Source: Streptomyces boluensis (GTDB taxonomy: Bacteria > Actinomycetota > Actinomycetes > Streptomycetales > Streptomycetaceae). Taken from it: a stretch of 54,490 nucleotides of DNA. Positions 35,653-41,481 of the stretch are shown here, piece by piece. Both the position numbers and the translations under genes were made by a program. The DNA lies in assembly GCF_009908195.1 (NCBI RefSeq), contig NZ_JAAAHS010000006.1, positions 1 to 54,490 on the forward strand, in the 5' to 3' direction. How positions within the stretch are numbered: the first letter of the stretch is position 1; the number at the start of each line of letters is the position of its first letter. Below the pieces are notes generated by a model. It was not told the DNA's origin and made no database searches. It saw only the letters and a list, made by a program, of their open reading frames with translations.

Positions 35653-37140
35653 TCACAGCGGCAGCTCCGGCGAGTCGACGCCGACCACCCGGTCACCGCA
35701 GAACACCCGGACCGACTCGGCCGGTCCGTGACCGCCGAGGCCGGCCGGCCCCCAGAAGCTCTGCGCGGAGTCGTCACCGAGGTCGGCGATCTTCGCGCCG
35801 TTGACCCGCACCTCACCGGCGAGGACGCGGGAGCCGACCTCGACCGCACGCTCGGCGTCGCCGCCGAACACGTAGGCGTCGAGCCCCGAGGGGTTGGAGT
35901 TCGCGATCCGCAGCGCCTCCTCGTCGGAATCGACGGCGTGCAGGGACACGACGGGACCGAACAACTCCGCGGTGGCCCTCGCCGGGTCGGCCCCGGCGGC
36001 GACGGTGGGGGACAGGAAGTACCCGTCGAGCTCGGGGAGTCGGGCCGGCTGGTGGACGGTCGCTCCCAGGGAGCGCAGTCCGTCGATCCGGCTCTGCAGT
36101 GTCGCGAAGTGCGGTGCGTTCGAGATCGGGCCGAGCTCGGTGCCCTCGTCGAGCGAGTGCCCGACCACGACCTTGGAGAGGCGCTCGGTCAGCGCTTCGA
36201 GCAGCGGATCGAGCAGGCTCCGGTGGGCGAGTACCTTGCCAGGACCCTCGCACCACTGGCCGTTCAGCTTGGTCATACCGTCGAAGATCCCGTCGGCGGC
36301 GACCTCGACGTCGGCGTCGTCCAGGACAAGCGCCGGGTTGTTGCCGCCCAGCTCCAGTTGCAGGACCTTGAAGTCCTCCGCCGCACCGCGGGCGATCGCG
36401 CGCCCGGCGGCCGGACCGCCGGTGAACGACACGATCCTGACGCGCGGGTCACCGGTCAGCGCGGCCCCGACATCGCCGCGGCCGTGCACCAACTGCAGGG
36501 CGCCGCTGGGCAGTCCGGCCTCGACGAAGCACTCGACGACTAGCTGCGCGCTGCCCGGGGCGTGCTCGGACGGCTTCAGAATCACCGGGCAGCCCGCGGC
36601 GACCGCACTCACCACCTTCGCCGCGGGGATGAAGCTCGGCCCGTTCCACGGCGTGAGGATCGCGGCCGGCCCCCACGGGACCTTGTACAGCCGCACGTCA
36701 CGTCCGCCCGCCGCCAGCGGCCGTACGCGGGGAATGCTCAGCAGGTCCGCCGCCGTCGCCCGGATCCGGGCGGGCAGGAAGGCCGTCACCTTCCGGGTGA
36801 CACCGATCGGCACCCCGCTGGTCAGGGAATCGGTACGGGCGATGTCCTCGGCCCGGCCCTCGATGAGCGCGGCGACCCGTTCGAGCATGTCCGCCCGCTC
36901 GCGACGCGCCTCCTCGTCCCACCGGCCGACGCCGTACACGCGCTCGGCATGCCGCAGGGCGCGTTCGACGTCGCGGGGTGCGGTCGTGGCCATGCGATGC
37001 ACCGGCTGCCGGGTGTTGGGGTCGATGTTCCACGCGTCCCGGTCGTCCCGTACCGCCTCGCAGTCGCTCCAGGCGTCCGCGATGTAGTTCACCGGCCGGG
37101 GGAGCGCCGTATCGGCCGTCACCGTCTCGCCGTTCGACAT
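35653..37140 (-). CDS. Aldehyde dehydrogenase (NAD(P)+)
   Basis: 495 residues. The general base Glu is in LQLELGGNNPALVLDDAD and the nucleophile Cys in KLNGQWCEGPGKVL. ILTPWNGPSFIPAAKVVSAVAAG and SFTGGPAAGRAIA form the cofactor site. It oxidises an aldehyde to the acid. In this operon the aldehyde could come from the alcohol dehydrogenase or from the PuuB-like oxidase. ATG 37140 is preferred: GAGGTG lies 6 bases upstream, and that site is duplicated. The C-terminal end departs from the usual family ending, so substrate prediction is unsafe. Confidence 0.86.
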   Translation of the reverse strand: MSNGETVTADTALPRPVNYIADAWSDCEAVRDDRDAWNIDPNTRQPVHRMATTAPRDVERALRHAERVYGVGRWDEEARRERADMLERVAALIEGRAEDIARTDSLTSGVPIGVTRKVTAFLPARIRATAADLLSIPRVRPLAAGGRDVRLYKVPWGPAAILTPWNGPSFIPAAKVVSAVAAGCPVILKPSEHAPGSAQLVVECFVEAGLPSGALQLVHGRGDVGAALTGDPRVRIVSFTGGPAAGRAIARGAAEDFKVLQLELGGNNPALVLDDADVEVAADGIFDGMTKLNGQWCEGPGKVLAHRSLLDPLLEALTERLSKVVVGHSLDEGTELGPISNAPHFATLQSRIDGLRSLGATVHQPARLPELDGYFLSPTVAAGADPARATAELFGPVVSLHAVDSDEEALRIANSNPSGLDAYVFGGDAERAVEVGSRVLAGEVRVNGAKIADLGDDSAQSFWGPAGLGGHGPAESVRVFCGDRVVGVDSPELPL

Positions 37141-37143
37141 GTG

Positions 37144-37167
37144 AGTCACCTCTGCAGTCACCTCTGC
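37144..37167 (-). repeat. Tandem duplication of the aldehyde dehydrogenase ribosome site
   Basis: GCAGAGGTGACT occurs twice head to tail just before the ATG, so two GAGGTG ribosome-binding sequences stand 12 bases apart. The nearer one has good spacing. The duplication is perfect. Confidence 0.7.
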
Positions 37168-37179
37168 ATCCCTTGCGTG

Positions 37180-38277
37180 TCAGGCCTGGAGGTCGACGAC
37201 GATGCGGGTCACATCGCCGCTGCGCATGGCCTTGAAGCCCTCGTTGATCTCGCCGAACGGGATGACCTGCGTGACCATCTCGTCGAGCAGCAGCCGCCCC
37301 TGCCGGTACAGGCGCGCGAGCTGGGCGATGTCCTGGCGTACCTGCCCCGAGCCCATGTACGAGCCGATGAGGCGCTTCTCCTCGAAGAAGAAGTCCGGGG
37401 CGGGCAACCGGAGTTCGGTGCCTTCCGGGGCGATGCCCACCAGGCAGGCGGTTCCGGTGGGCCGCAGCACCGACAGGGCCGTGGCCGCCGTACGGGCCGA
37501 GCCGACTGCCTCGAACGAGTAGTCCACCCCGTCGCCAAGGAGGTTCCGCACTTCTGCGGCGACGTCTTCGGCGCCCCCGTTCACGACGTGGGTCGCCCCG
37601 TAGCCGCGCGCGGCCTTCAGGCGCGCTTCGTCCAGGTCGATCGCGACGACGGCCGAGGCTCCCGCGAGCCTTGCTCCCTGGATGATGGCCGACCCGACGC
37701 CGCCGCAGCCGATCACCGCGACGGTGCTCCCCGGGCGCACCCGGGCAGCGCGGAAGACGGCTCCCACACCGGTGATCACACAGCACGCGAGGAGACACCC
37801 CACGTGCAGCGGCACCTCGTCGTCCAGCTTCACCAGGGCGTTCTCACGTATGAGCGTGTGCCGCGAGAACGCGCCGATGTCGCCGAGCCGCTCGACCGGC
37901 TTGCCGTCCTTCAACTGAAAGGCGGGGCGCGGGCGTTCACGTACTTCCGCGACGCGCAGGCACTGCGTCGACCGGCCCGCCTCGCAGTTGACGCACCGGC
38001 CGCACGACGGAGTCAGCGCCCCGACCACGCGGTCGCCAGGCCTCAGCCCGGTCACCGCGGAACCGGTCGCCTCGACCACGCCGGCCACCTCGTGGCCCAC
38101 CACCACCGGCAGAGCGGTAGGGACCGTTCCGGTCATGTAGTGCAGGTCGCTGTGGCACAGACCCACGTGGGAGACCGCGACGCGCACCTCGTCGGGCTCG
38201 GGGTCGTCCACCTGGATCGCCGTCATCTCGAGCGGCTCGTTCAGCGCGGTGAGCACCGCGGCCTCTGTCTCGATCAC
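37180..38277 (-). CDS. Zinc-dependent alcohol dehydrogenase (MDR superfamily)
   Basis: 365 residues. The catalytic zinc site is GLCHSDLHYMTG plus GHEVAGVVEATG, and the structural zinc loop has four Cys (CGRCVNCEAGRSTQC). The cofactor loop is VAVIGCGGVGSAIIQGARLAGA, with Asp in VVAIDLDEARL favouring NAD. Class III-like actinobacterial alcohol dehydrogenases look like this. GTG 38277 has GAGGAG 8 bases upstream; GTG 38283 is too close to it. The start lies next to the stop of the ligase-crotonase gene, so translation is probably coupled. It would oxidise an alcohol or hydroxyacyl intermediate. Confidence 0.86.
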   Translation of the reverse strand: MIETEAAVLTALNEPLEMTAIQVDDPEPDEVRVAVSHVGLCHSDLHYMTGTVPTALPVVVGHEVAGVVEATGSAVTGLRPGDRVVGALTPSCGRCVNCEAGRSTQCLRVAEVRERPRPAFQLKDGKPVERLGDIGAFSRHTLIRENALVKLDDEVPLHVGCLLACCVITGVGAVFRAARVRPGSTVAVIGCGGVGSAIIQGARLAGASAVVAIDLDEARLKAARGYGATHVVNGGAEDVAAEVRNLLGDGVDYSFEAVGSARTAATALSVLRPTGTACLVGIAPEGTELRLPAPDFFFEEKRLIGSYMGSGQVRQDIAQLARLYRQGRLLLDEMVTQVIPFGEINEGFKAMRSGDVTRIVVDLQA

Positions 38278-40790
38278 GTCCACGTCTCCTCTGTCGTACG
38301 GGCGTCACGGCGCTGTTCGCCGGCGCCCTTCGCGTTCCAGAAGCCCTCGATGCCCGCGCTGAACACGCCGCTCTCCCAGGCCTGTTGCGCGGCGGCGTCC
38401 TCACGGGCGAAGGCCTGCTCGATCTCGTCGGGCCGCGGCCGGAGCAGCGCGAGGTGCAGCGCCGTCGTGTTGTTCTCCGGCGTCCACTCGACGACCAGGT
38501 CGACGGCCCGTTCGAGCAGCTCCTCCGGCGCGACGATCTCGTCGAGGAGACCGATCCGCCGGGCCTCCTCGGCGCCGATCCGCGGCGAGCCGAGGACCAT
38601 GCGCGTCGCGTGGTTCCGTACGAGGCGGGTGAGCAGCAGGCTCGACGCGTTCGAGATCGTGATGCCGCGGCCGTTCTCCGGCTGGTAGTACTCCGCCGCC
38701 GGGGTGCCGATCCGCGCGTCGCAGCAGAGCGTGATCTCGGAGGCGCCGCCCACCGCCAGGCCGTTCACCGCGGCGACGACGGGGACCCGTGTCTCCACGA
38801 CGGCCCGGGTGATGTCGTGGAAGCTCTCGACGGCCGCACGGACCTGCGCGTACGAGGTCGGCGCGGCCTCGAGATCCTCGCCCGACGAGAATGCCCGGCC
38901 CGTACCGGTGAGCACGATCCCGCGTACGTCCGCGCCTGTGCCGAACTCCCGTACCGTACGGGCAAGTTGCAGCCGGGTGGCGACGTCCATGGCGTTGAGC
39001 TTCTCCGGACGGCGCAGGGTCAGCACGGCCACATCGCGGACGACGTCGACGCCGAGGCGGCCCTCGGCCGGGACGGCGGACGCGCCGCCGGTCCTGCCAC
39101 GGGAACCCAGGTCGTACGTGACACCGGGCTCGTTGGCGGCGCGGGTCCTGAGGGCCGGCTTGGACACGCGCGCGGACGGCGTCCGTGGGAAGTCCGCGAC
39201 GAATTCGACGTAGCGCGGCACCTTGAAGCGGGCGAGCTGCCGGCCGGCCCGGTCGACGATCCTCTCGGCGGTCGACCGGTCGGCCGCCACTCCGGGGACC
39301 AACTGCACGAACGCCTTGACCTCTTCACCGAGCGTGTCGTCGGGCTCGGCGACGACCGCGGTCGCCATGACCGCGTCGTCCCGTTCAAGCGCGGCCTCGA
39401 CCTCGGCGCTGGCGATGTTCTCGCCGCCCCGACGCACCATGTCCTTGATCCGCCCGACCAGTTGAAGCCCGCCGTCCGGCCGGCGGACGACGACGTCACC
39501 GGTGTGCAGCCAGCCTCCCCCGGCGGCTACGCCCTCATTGCCGGGGGGACCCCCACTCCGCAGCACCCGTGCGGTGTCCTCCGGACGGTTCCAGTAGCCG
39601 CGCATCATCGGCTTCCCGGAGACCACCAGCTCACCGGGCGCACCGTCGCTCAGGTCGGCGCCCTGCGAGTCGACCACCCGCACCTGCTTCGTCGGCACCG
39701 GCTGCCCGAGGCTCCCGGTCCCCACGGCCCGCACGTCGTCGACGGGCGCGAAGAGGTCCACGCCTGACTCGGTCATGCCGTAGATCTCCCGCCACGGCGC
39801 GCCCCAGCGCTCCTCCAGCTGCGCGTGGATCCCCACCGGAATGCCCGAACAGAGCACCAGGCGCAGGTCGTTGTCCAGGTCGTCGGCGCTCGGTGGCTGC
39901 TTGAACAGCAGCGTCGGCATGGACCCGAGTACGTAGAAGAACGTGGCGCGATGGCGGCGGACATCGGCGAAGAAGCCCGATGCGGAGAACCGCGGCAGCA
40001 CCACAAGCGGCGCCCCGATGGTCAGGGCGAGCGCGGTGTTCCACTGCGGATCCATGTACGAGAACGGCTGCGCGGTGAGCAGCACGTCCTCGGCCCCGAG
40101 CCCGGTCACCCCGGCGCAGGTCCAGCCGAGCCGCACCCAGTAGTCGTGCGTGAGCATGCACGCCTTGGGGAAGCCGGTGGTGCCCGAGGTGTACTGCAGG
40201 TTCGCCAGCGTCCCGGCGGTGACGCGCAGCGGGGGAGCGGTCGCGGGGAAGGGCGCGGACCCGTCCGCGGCGACGTCGACGACCCGCAGGTCCGCCAAGT
40301 CCCGCTCGGCGTCGGTGACTTCCTTCAGAAGACCGGCCCGCTCGTCGTCGGTGAACACGACCCGCGCTCCCGAGTCCCGCAGCAGAAAGGTGAGATCCGC
40401 CCGCTGGTACGAGGAGTTGACCGGTACGACCACAGCGCCGGCCTTCAGCGCGGCCAGCCATACGACCGGCCAGTGCACGATGTTCGGAAGCATGATCGCG
40501 ACGCGGTCACCGGTCCGGACTCCGTCGACCTCGATCAGCCGGTGCGCGAGCCTGGACGTCCAGGCCTCGATCTCGGCAAAGGTCCAGGACTCTTCCCCGA
40601 AGCGCAGGAATTCCCGGTCCGGCGATTTCCGGGCACGCTCGGAGAGCAACCCGGTCAGCGTCGCGATATGCGGGTCTTCGCCCATCTGGTCGGCTCCGAC
40701 GGCCGGTCGGGGGTGGCGAGAGGACACGTTTCCCAGCTCCCCTGCTGTTTGATTCACGACATCTCCGTCGACTCGGCGCTCCTCAGACAT
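38274..40790 (-). CDS. Acyl-CoA ligase - enoyl-CoA hydratase fusion protein
   Basis: 838 residues. An N-terminal adenylate-forming ligase (~35-570) has QYTSGTTGFPKACMLTH, IYGMTESGVDL, GWLHTGDVVVRR, then RIKDMVRRGGENIASAEVE, and a C-terminal Lys near RVSKPALR. It is joined to a crotonase domain (~590-838) with GRAFSSGEDL and NGLAVGGASEITLCCD forming the oxyanion hole. Glu in GGASE and Glu in YYQPENG match the two catalytic Glu of enoyl-CoA hydratase. One chain could thus activate an acid and hydrate its enoyl-CoA. A 14-residue insert encoded by a GC hairpin element lies just before GWLHTGD. ATG 40790 overlaps the upstream stop by 8 bases; ATG 40685 is an alternative. Confidence 0.82.
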   Translation of the reverse strand: MSEERRVDGDVVNQTAGELGNVSSRHPRPAVGADQMGEDPHIATLTGLLSERARKSPDREFLRFGEESWTFAEIEAWTSRLAHRLIEVDGVRTGDRVAIMLPNIVHWPVVWLAALKAGAVVVPVNSSYQRADLTFLLRDSGARVVFTDDERAGLLKEVTDAERDLADLRVVDVAADGSAPFPATAPPLRVTAGTLANLQYTSGTTGFPKACMLTHDYWVRLGWTCAGVTGLGAEDVLLTAQPFSYMDPQWNTALALTIGAPLVVLPRFSASGFFADVRRHRATFFYVLGSMPTLLFKQPPSADDLDNDLRLVLCSGIPVGIHAQLEERWGAPWREIYGMTESGVDLFAPVDDVRAVGTGSLGQPVPTKQVRVVDSQGADLSDGAPGELVVSGKPMMRGYWNRPEDTARVLRSGGPPGNEGVAAGGGWLHTGDVVVRRPDGGLQLVGRIKDMVRRGGENIASAEVEAALERDDAVMATAVVAEPDDTLGEEVKAFVQLVPGVAADRSTAERIVDRAGRQLARFKVPRYVEFVADFPRTPSARVSKPALRTRAANEPGVTYDLGSRGRTGGASAVPAEGRLGVDVVRDVAVLTLRRPEKLNAMDVATRLQLARTVREFGTGADVRGIVLTGTGRAFSSGEDLEAAPTSYAQVRAAVESFHDITRAVVETRVPVVAAVNGLAVGGASEITLCCDARIGTPAAEYYQPENGRGITISNASSLLLTRLVRNHATRMVLGSPRIGAEEARRIGLLDEIVAPEELLERAVDLVVEWTPENNTTALHLALLRPRPDEIEQAFAREDAAAQQAWESGVFSAGIEGFWNAKGAGEQRRDARTTEETWT
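39515..39556 (-). repeat. GC-rich palindromic element inserted in frame in the ligase gene
   Basis: CCCCCGGC (39517-39524) pairs with GCCGGGGG (39540-39547) across a 15-base loop. A second small GGGGG/CCCCC hairpin follows at 39543-39554. The type resembles the GGGGGTCCCCC-bearing intergenic repeats I recall from Streptomyces chromosomes. Here it encodes Gly/Pro-rich residues (SGGPPGNEGVAAGGG) between VLR and GWLHTGD, where ligases normally have one or two residues. Confidence 0.6.
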
Positions 40791-41481
40791 CGGCACGGTC
40801 GTGCACCTGCCGGTCCTTCTCCGCATCGGCCGATTCGCCCAGCCGGTGCAGGGCGCGGTACGCGAAGTAGTACATGCACATCTGGAATCCCCAAGTGCTC
40901 AGCGCCGCCGTGTAGAAGAGGGTGTGCGCCGCGTCGTCGCCCGGGATGTGGACGTAGTCGTAGATCGAGGCGATCCCGAATGCGGCAGCGGTCGCGAGCC
41001 CCGCACCGATCGCCATTCCCTTAGCGCCGGCCGCCCAGAGCCGCCGCGAGAAGTAGAGGAGAAACAGCGTGGTCAGCACATTGACCACGACGTAGAAGAC
41101 AGCAAGACCGCGACCCAGCTCCTCGCCGAAGATCTGCAGGACGAGCCCGACCCCGGCGGCGAACGCGAACACCCCGACATCCACGGCCACGGACGGCCTG
41201 TACCGATGCGTCACGGCCATCAGACCCATCACGAGAATCAACGTGATGCCGACCGACCGGGAGAACGCGTCGAGGAAATGCGCGGCGGTGTACATGGGGC
41301 TGTCTTCGCCGGCCCCCACGGCCGCGTAGACGAAGAAGTTCGACCCGGAGGTGGCGACGATGATCCATTCGAGGCCGAGAAGATAGTTCCGGAATTCCTT
41401 GATGAATTTCCAGCCGAAGGTGAATCCGACGACGACCATCCAGACGTCGGCAAGCAGGAAGAGTAGATCTCTGAGTGCCAT
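40783..41481 (-). CDS. Integral membrane protein, function unknown
   Basis: 232 residues with about seven hydrophobic segments (for example LLFLLADVWMVVVGFTFGW, VGITLILVMGLMAV, VFAFAAGVGLVLQIFG, GMAIGAGLATAAAFGIASI). The last ~25 residues are polar. I do not recognise the family. GAGGAAAC precedes ATG 41481. It is the second gene of the long catabolic operon, after a 48-aa protein and before the ligase-crotonase fusion, whose start overlaps its stop. A transporter, sensor or membrane anchor for the pathway enzymes are all possible. Confidence 0.7.
   Translation of the reverse strand: MALRDLLFLLADVWMVVVGFTFGWKFIKEFRNYLLGLEWIIVATSGSNFFVYAAVGAGEDSPMYTAAHFLDAFSRSVGITLILVMGLMAVTHRYRPSVAVDVGVFAFAAGVGLVLQIFGEELGRGLAVFYVVVNVLTTLFLLYFSRRLWAAGAKGMAIGAGLATAAAFGIASIYDYVHIPGDDAAHTLFYTAALSTWGFQMCMYYFAYRALHRLGESADAEKDRQVHDRADV

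Follow-up and report, generated by a model that had tools for sequence, protein, structure and literature searches.

A palindromic repeat read in frame within an acyl-CoA ligase gene of Streptomyces boluensis

The window analyzed here, a stretch of 54,490 nucleotides from Streptomyces boluensis, encodes a fused acyl-CoA ligase in which 14 residues, SGGPPGNEGVAAGG, stand directly before the GWLHTGD motif, where the nearest relatives have one Asp. An earlier note, made from the sequence alone, described the responsible DNA as a GC-rich hairpin and proposed either a captured repeat serving as a loop or a recent insertion that damages the enzyme. The questions raised by this locus are what the inserted DNA is, and how the protein accommodates it. 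By far the best explanation is that the insert belongs to a dispersed family of GC-rich palindromes, each about 30-46 bp long, which also occur in genes, and that this selfish or neutral repeat has been incorporated into the protein and is tolerated as a loop.

The insert and its host gene

The features of the locus are as follows.

39516..39555, minus strand: copy of the hairpin element, TGGGGGTCCCCCCGGC-AATGAGGGCGTAGCC-GCCGGGGGA, a 40-bp variant of the family
39516..39557, minus strand: whole inserted stretch, 42 nt against one GAC codon in relatives, a net gain of 39 nt or 13 residues
39495..39515, minus strand: GWLHTGD codons, directly 3' of the insert; G, W, H, T, G and D are invariant in 17 aligned rows
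38274..40826, minus strand: host gene, an AMP-binding acyl-CoA ligase fused to an enoyl-CoA hydratase/isomerase (PF00501, PF13193, PF00378)

The 42-nt insert starts with AGTGGGGGTCCCCCCGGC and finishes with GCCGGGGGA, its hairpin arms are arranged as TGGGGGTCCCCCCGGC-N15-GCCGGGGGA, and it is read in frame within the ORF 38274-40826. The earlier note had its size right (42 nt, 14 residues), while the position given, 39515-39556, is one base off from the actual 39516-39557. In the closest relatives, L066 (genome G098) and L070 (Streptomyces aureus NRRL B-2808), the empty site CTGCGGGACGGCTGG is found; CTGCGG-GAC-GGCTGG of the relatives corresponds to CTGCGG-(42 nt)-GGCTGG in the window, with the frame kept. 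The relatives that bracket this insertion do so at only ~84% protein identity. Alignment with orthologues, proposed earlier as a check, bears out an in-frame GC hairpin adding ~14 residues just before GWLHTGD in an open ORF, as the inserted residues are found in 0 of 84 aligned relatives, which comprise four from the genus search, where 5 of 150 genomes including the own one had a match, and the best 80 of at least 593 loci from a named genome collection. The shortfall of these 84 relatives at the insert is 7 to 17 residues, mostly 12-13.

The longest ORF encodes 850 aa, and the alignment to the nearest orthologues starts near 40760. The protein joins an AMP-binding ligase domain with its C-terminal domain to an enoyl-CoA hydratase domain. 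The host enzyme belongs to the ANL superfamily (acyl-CoA ligases and NRPS adenylation domains) and carries the features of ANL acyl-CoA ligases, including the AMP-binding domain, the P-loop YTSGTTGFPK, the TGD motif and the C-terminal domain; an insert before the TGD motif sets it apart from the 84 relatives (best 80 of at least 593 loci included). The insert lies between the helix following GYWNRPE and the strand beginning with GWLHTGD. An AlphaFold2 model built from 17 sequences has a mean pLDDT of 79.8, and the insert (residues 377-390 of the fragment) falls within a segment of pLDDT <50 (378-391) that forms a loop between helix and strand. The top Foldseek match of the model is feruloyl-CoA synthetase 8weu (TM 0.63-0.69). 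Next after the ligase-hydratase fusion, at 35653-38283 of the window on the minus strand, come genes for an alcohol and an aldehyde dehydrogenase, for which the best NCBIfam matches fall below their cut-offs. Because of these dehydrogenase neighbours and the feruloyl-CoA synthetase fold match, the genes look like a cassette for aromatic-acid catabolism, with a putative ferulate-like substrate.

Damage to the enzyme was considered in this context. A recent hairpin insertion that harms the ligase, the gene being on its way to a pseudogene, is unlikely, even though the TGD Asp comes seven residues after the end of the insert and two other copies of the family lie between reading frames. The arms are still well matched in a gene ~13% diverged from its nearest relative; therefore, the insertion may be fairly young. 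However, the frame is open through both domains, which are both recognised, and the substitutions seen only in the window lineage (28 nonsynonymous against 84 synonymous, the former counted only with outgroup support and the latter without) show no excess of amino-acid changes over those of two relatives (25 and 53 in one, 8 and 37 in the other, together 33:90; Fisher p 0.77), although counts of this kind would not yet betray a young pseudogene. Judged from these substitutions, the host gene is under ordinary constraint, with no sign of relaxation. With the insert also placed in a low-confidence predicted loop, the damage proposed earlier fits less well than its counterpart, and the reading of a captured repeat tolerated as a predicted loop in the ligase is well supported by sequence and model. 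Tolerance would be favored by the lack of stop codons in the frames used, by the flexible Gly/Pro-rich peptide and by the predicted surface position of the loop.

A dispersed hairpin family in Streptomyces

The family has the pattern TGGGGGNNCCNCCCGGCCGRAGGCYGGGGGA, with a 31-bp core and longer forms of >40 bp. Its common form, TGGGGGNNCCNCCCGGCCGRAGGCTGGGGGA, has 18 copies at <=3 mismatches in the draft genome of the host strain (G000), with none for the reversed control, and the window copy lies outside these 18. A second form has the interior TGCTCGAGCGAAGCCGAGAGCTT. The family consensus picks up 119 copies, spread over 32 of the 41 genus genomes searched, the own genome included, and the reversed control again gave 0. 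The genus is taken to be Streptomyces from its nearest named relatives. When <=2 mismatches are allowed, 6 of 197 genomes across the class contain the consensus, made up of 6 of 16 within the genus and 0 of 181 in other genera; the family thus appears genus-restricted within the sample examined. The search of the genome for other copies of the hairpin, suggested in the earlier note, was accordingly productive, yielding 18 further family copies. Both refuting conditions set by that note came out in its favour, with the residues absent from the 84 aligned relatives and further hairpins present in the genome. The 17-nt left arm GTGGGGGTCCCCCCGGC occurs exactly at 4 places in the 8.2-Mb genome, the one in the window included, and at <=2 mismatches it occurs at 24 places versus 7 for the reversed-pattern control. 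Three copies of the same genome, on contigs C16, C290 and C445, share the 18 nt AGTGGGGGTCCCCCCGGC exactly, and all three score as non-coding.

The window copy is, on the present comparison, an atypical member of the family, with a unique interior and an unusual codon phase of its TCCCCCC arm. Its 15-nt interior is in no other copy compared, and further 40-bp copies of its kind number 0 among 11 exact-arm places in 150 genomes and none among the other loci examined. Given its composition, the single strand folds with ordinary stability (z +0.38; an equal or better fold is reached by 120 of 200 shuffles), and fold energy was rejected as proof of a hairpin on this ground. Matches inside the window at <=3 mismatches (4 versus 1.74 expected, with 10 of 100 shuffles reaching 4) are not significant. 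The significance of the element comes from its recurrence across genomes and from the empty sites, not from fold energy.

The ordinary fold energy and the unique interior, together with the GC-richness of the local coding DNA, are what might be expected of a Gly/Pro linker of the usual variable kind, with GC-rich codons that happen to look like the hairpin, and the loops of two further host proteins described below, Pta and a flavoprotein, vary by other means too. Such a coincidence is nevertheless very improbable, given an 18-nt left arm shared with three copies scored as non-coding in the same genome, the reversed-pattern control of 0 in 41 genomes and the consensus count of 0 in 181 genomes of other genera. 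It is further contradicted by in-frame copies of the element in unrelated genes whose orthologues are empty, and no such linker is present in the 84 ligase relatives (best 80 of at least 593 loci included).

Several features of the family go beyond the core. Five hairpins of the second form (L035, L037, L040, L042, L043) have nearly identical flanks on both sides and therefore lie within a longer repeated unit. In L228, L246, L257, L270 and others, GCGAGCGAAGCGAG or a similar sequence precedes TGGGGG, adding residues such as GERSE; these copies possibly represent a longer form of the element. Hairpin copies are also located at the very ends of contigs C9 and C497 of G000, and the repeat may break the draft assembly of this genome. 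Regarding a mover, five Y1_Tnp matches are present in the own genome, and no hairpin was found in the 1.7-3.3 kb read around each; the nearest known hairpin copy to a Y1 match is 2.4 kb away, on contig C781. No RAYT-type gene was seen beside a hairpin copy in this genome. A Y1/RAYT mover is not supported in the own genome, the five Y1 matches being free of hairpins in the stretches read. The family would have spread as a selfish repeat.

Copies within genes and their empty orthologues

Codon usage was scored on both sides of each copy, with a codon model trained partly on the same loci that were scored, and 115 of the 119 copies were classified. Outside the own genome, 97 of 101 copies were scored (four neighbours in G002, on contigs C195 and C151, were left out): 39 are in frame in one open codon-biased gene, 1 separates two frames of the same strand, 23 are coding on one side only and 34 on neither side. 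In the own genome, most of the 18 copies (13) have no coding side; 3 are in frame, and the other two are one-sided and between frames, respectively. In total, 42 of 115 copies are in frame in open codon-biased genes versus 2 between two frames (binomial against 1/3, p 4e-18, copies treated as independent; the 42 hosts form 33 sequence clusters, and the independent number is below 42). The earlier view that such palindromes normally lie between genes holds only in part, as 42 of the 115 classified copies are inside genes. Copies are also rarer in genes than neighbouring positions would be: among 188 control positions, taken 550 bp away on both sides, an in-frame location in a gene is seen for 132 (with 43 one-sided, 11 non-coding and 2 on opposite strands), as compared with 39 of 97 copies outside the own genome and 3 of 18 within it. 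Frame-shifting copies would have been removed by purifying selection on the host gene. The two copies between reading frames of one strand, L158 (C54:1455, own genome) and L230, are where a frame-shifting insertion, a pair of neighbouring genes or an assembly error would put them.

Two codon phases are used among the 33 sense hosts outside the own genome, by 21 and 12 hosts, respectively. At its 3' end, the window copy follows the phase of the 12, but 0 of the 18 sense hosts that have a TCCCCCC arm read it in the codon phase found in the window. The scanned host genes belong to many unrelated families; one copy, L256 (G011:C39), is in frame inside a TnpB/Cas12f-like (PF07282) gene. In G036, a hairpin is found at six places (genes or modules) just before MYRTGDL, which we take to be an adenylation-domain motif, in the same part of the ANL fold as the insert of the window ligase. 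Because the family sits in many unrelated genes, closeness to a catalytic motif does not appear special to the ligase.

Empty orthologues confirm the insertion in 11 of 12 hosts compared, including the essential gene pheT, pta and topA; the twelfth, L302, has no orthologue other than itself, and two hosts of the own genome classed as in frame, L163 and L166, were left out of the comparison. The pheT and pta genes have one match each in all 41 genomes. The pheT gene of G002 is longer by 27 nt, 29 of 29 other loci are read without the insert, and the solved PheT structure 7k98 has a gap at the insert position. The pta gene of the own genome is likewise longer by 27 nt, with 26 of 29 other loci read without the insert; the nine-residue gap is single in 25 of the 29 and split in L363. 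The pta genes of G022, G025 and G028 (L340, L345, L346) have insertions of other sequence at the same turn, which suggests that this turn is a hot spot for tolerated insertions. All relatives shown are without the element for the glyoxalase/HPPD-like gene (9 relatives), the GH38 alpha-mannosidase (5), UvrD (5, insert in a variable linker), AraC (3), the FAD flavoprotein (9, loop of varying length), the FAD oxidase (2) and topA (6). In the flavoprotein and UvrD hosts, the loop varies also among relatives without the element. For IucA/C, two relatives are without the insert and one, L399 from a second genome, has a diverged copy; therefore, the insert has been kept while drifting.

This retention across species (L237/L399), the related in-gene copies in genomes G024 and G038 (L264, L265, L289, L290) and the six G036 sites in the part of the ANL fold matching the window ligase could be read as signs that the element is useful in genes, for example as an RNA hairpin slowing translation or as an adaptive loop, the in-frame copies being selected for instead of tolerated. 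Since copies are depleted in genes and the scanned hosts come from many unrelated families, such a benefit is improbable. Tolerance of a selfish or neutral repeat remains the preferred reading.

In 6 of 11 hosts (ligase, pta, pheT, GH38, FAD oxidase and topA), a GAC codon followed by G is missing at the 3' junction, as read by eye and against other species; at the pta junction, the second-nearest relative has GAG. The GAC-G junction is a lead from sequence comparison, not a rule. A bolder proposal, tentative and on balance doubtful, is that of a genus-specific mobile protein-coding palindrome of Streptomyces that prefers GAC-G (Asp-Gly turn) sites and thereby equips essential and biosynthetic enzymes systematically with surface loops, which would make it an independent GC-rich counterpart of the Rickettsia palindromic elements, with a target choice favoring tolerated turns.

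Relation to known palindromic elements

In-frame palindromic repeats within genes have been described from Rickettsia and Wolbachia and, as REPs, from several further genera (PMC3767692, PMC10969869, PMC3733652). No report of in-frame palindromic repeats in Streptomyces was found in a full-text literature search of partial coverage with few subscription journals, and hence priority is not established; the main text of PMC3733652 contains no word beginning Streptomyces or Actinobacteri, and the string gggggtcccccc occurs in one paper, PMC2707616. A separate family in a free-living, genetically tractable genus, with many species as empty controls, would allow tests of how repeats move and are absorbed into proteins, and of their possible role in shaping enzymes, NRPS adenylation domains among them. 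For annotators, the family is a warning that Gly/Pro-rich inserts in Streptomyces enzymes, including PheT and TopA, can be repeat DNA.

Two known systems invite comparison. GTAG/CGTC-tagged REPs are described as 20-40 bp palindromes that are mostly intergenic, some lying wholly inside ORFs, including those of UvrD-type helicases and tRNA synthetases, and intragenic REPs are known in several other genera (PMC3733652). The 31-bp core of the Streptomyces family falls within this size range, whereas its longer forms exceed 40 bp, and the family is not marked by a GTAG/CGTC tag, such a tetranucleotide lying close to an end of 16 of 97 copies as against 400 of 940 positions drawn at random. The Rickettsia palindromic elements (RPEs) are, according to PMC3767692 and PMC10969869, repeated palindromes in frame in unrelated genes at solvent-exposed places, with pheT also among the host genes. 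The Streptomyces family shares with the Rickettsia and Wolbachia elements both the dispersal of a palindrome and its in-frame position in unrelated genes. RPEs belong to obligate intracellular bacteria and are 100-150 bp long (PMC3767692), in contrast to a GC-rich family of 30-46 bp in a free-living actinomycete genus. By analogy, the Streptomyces family would work like the Rickettsia palindromic elements, in a shorter form.
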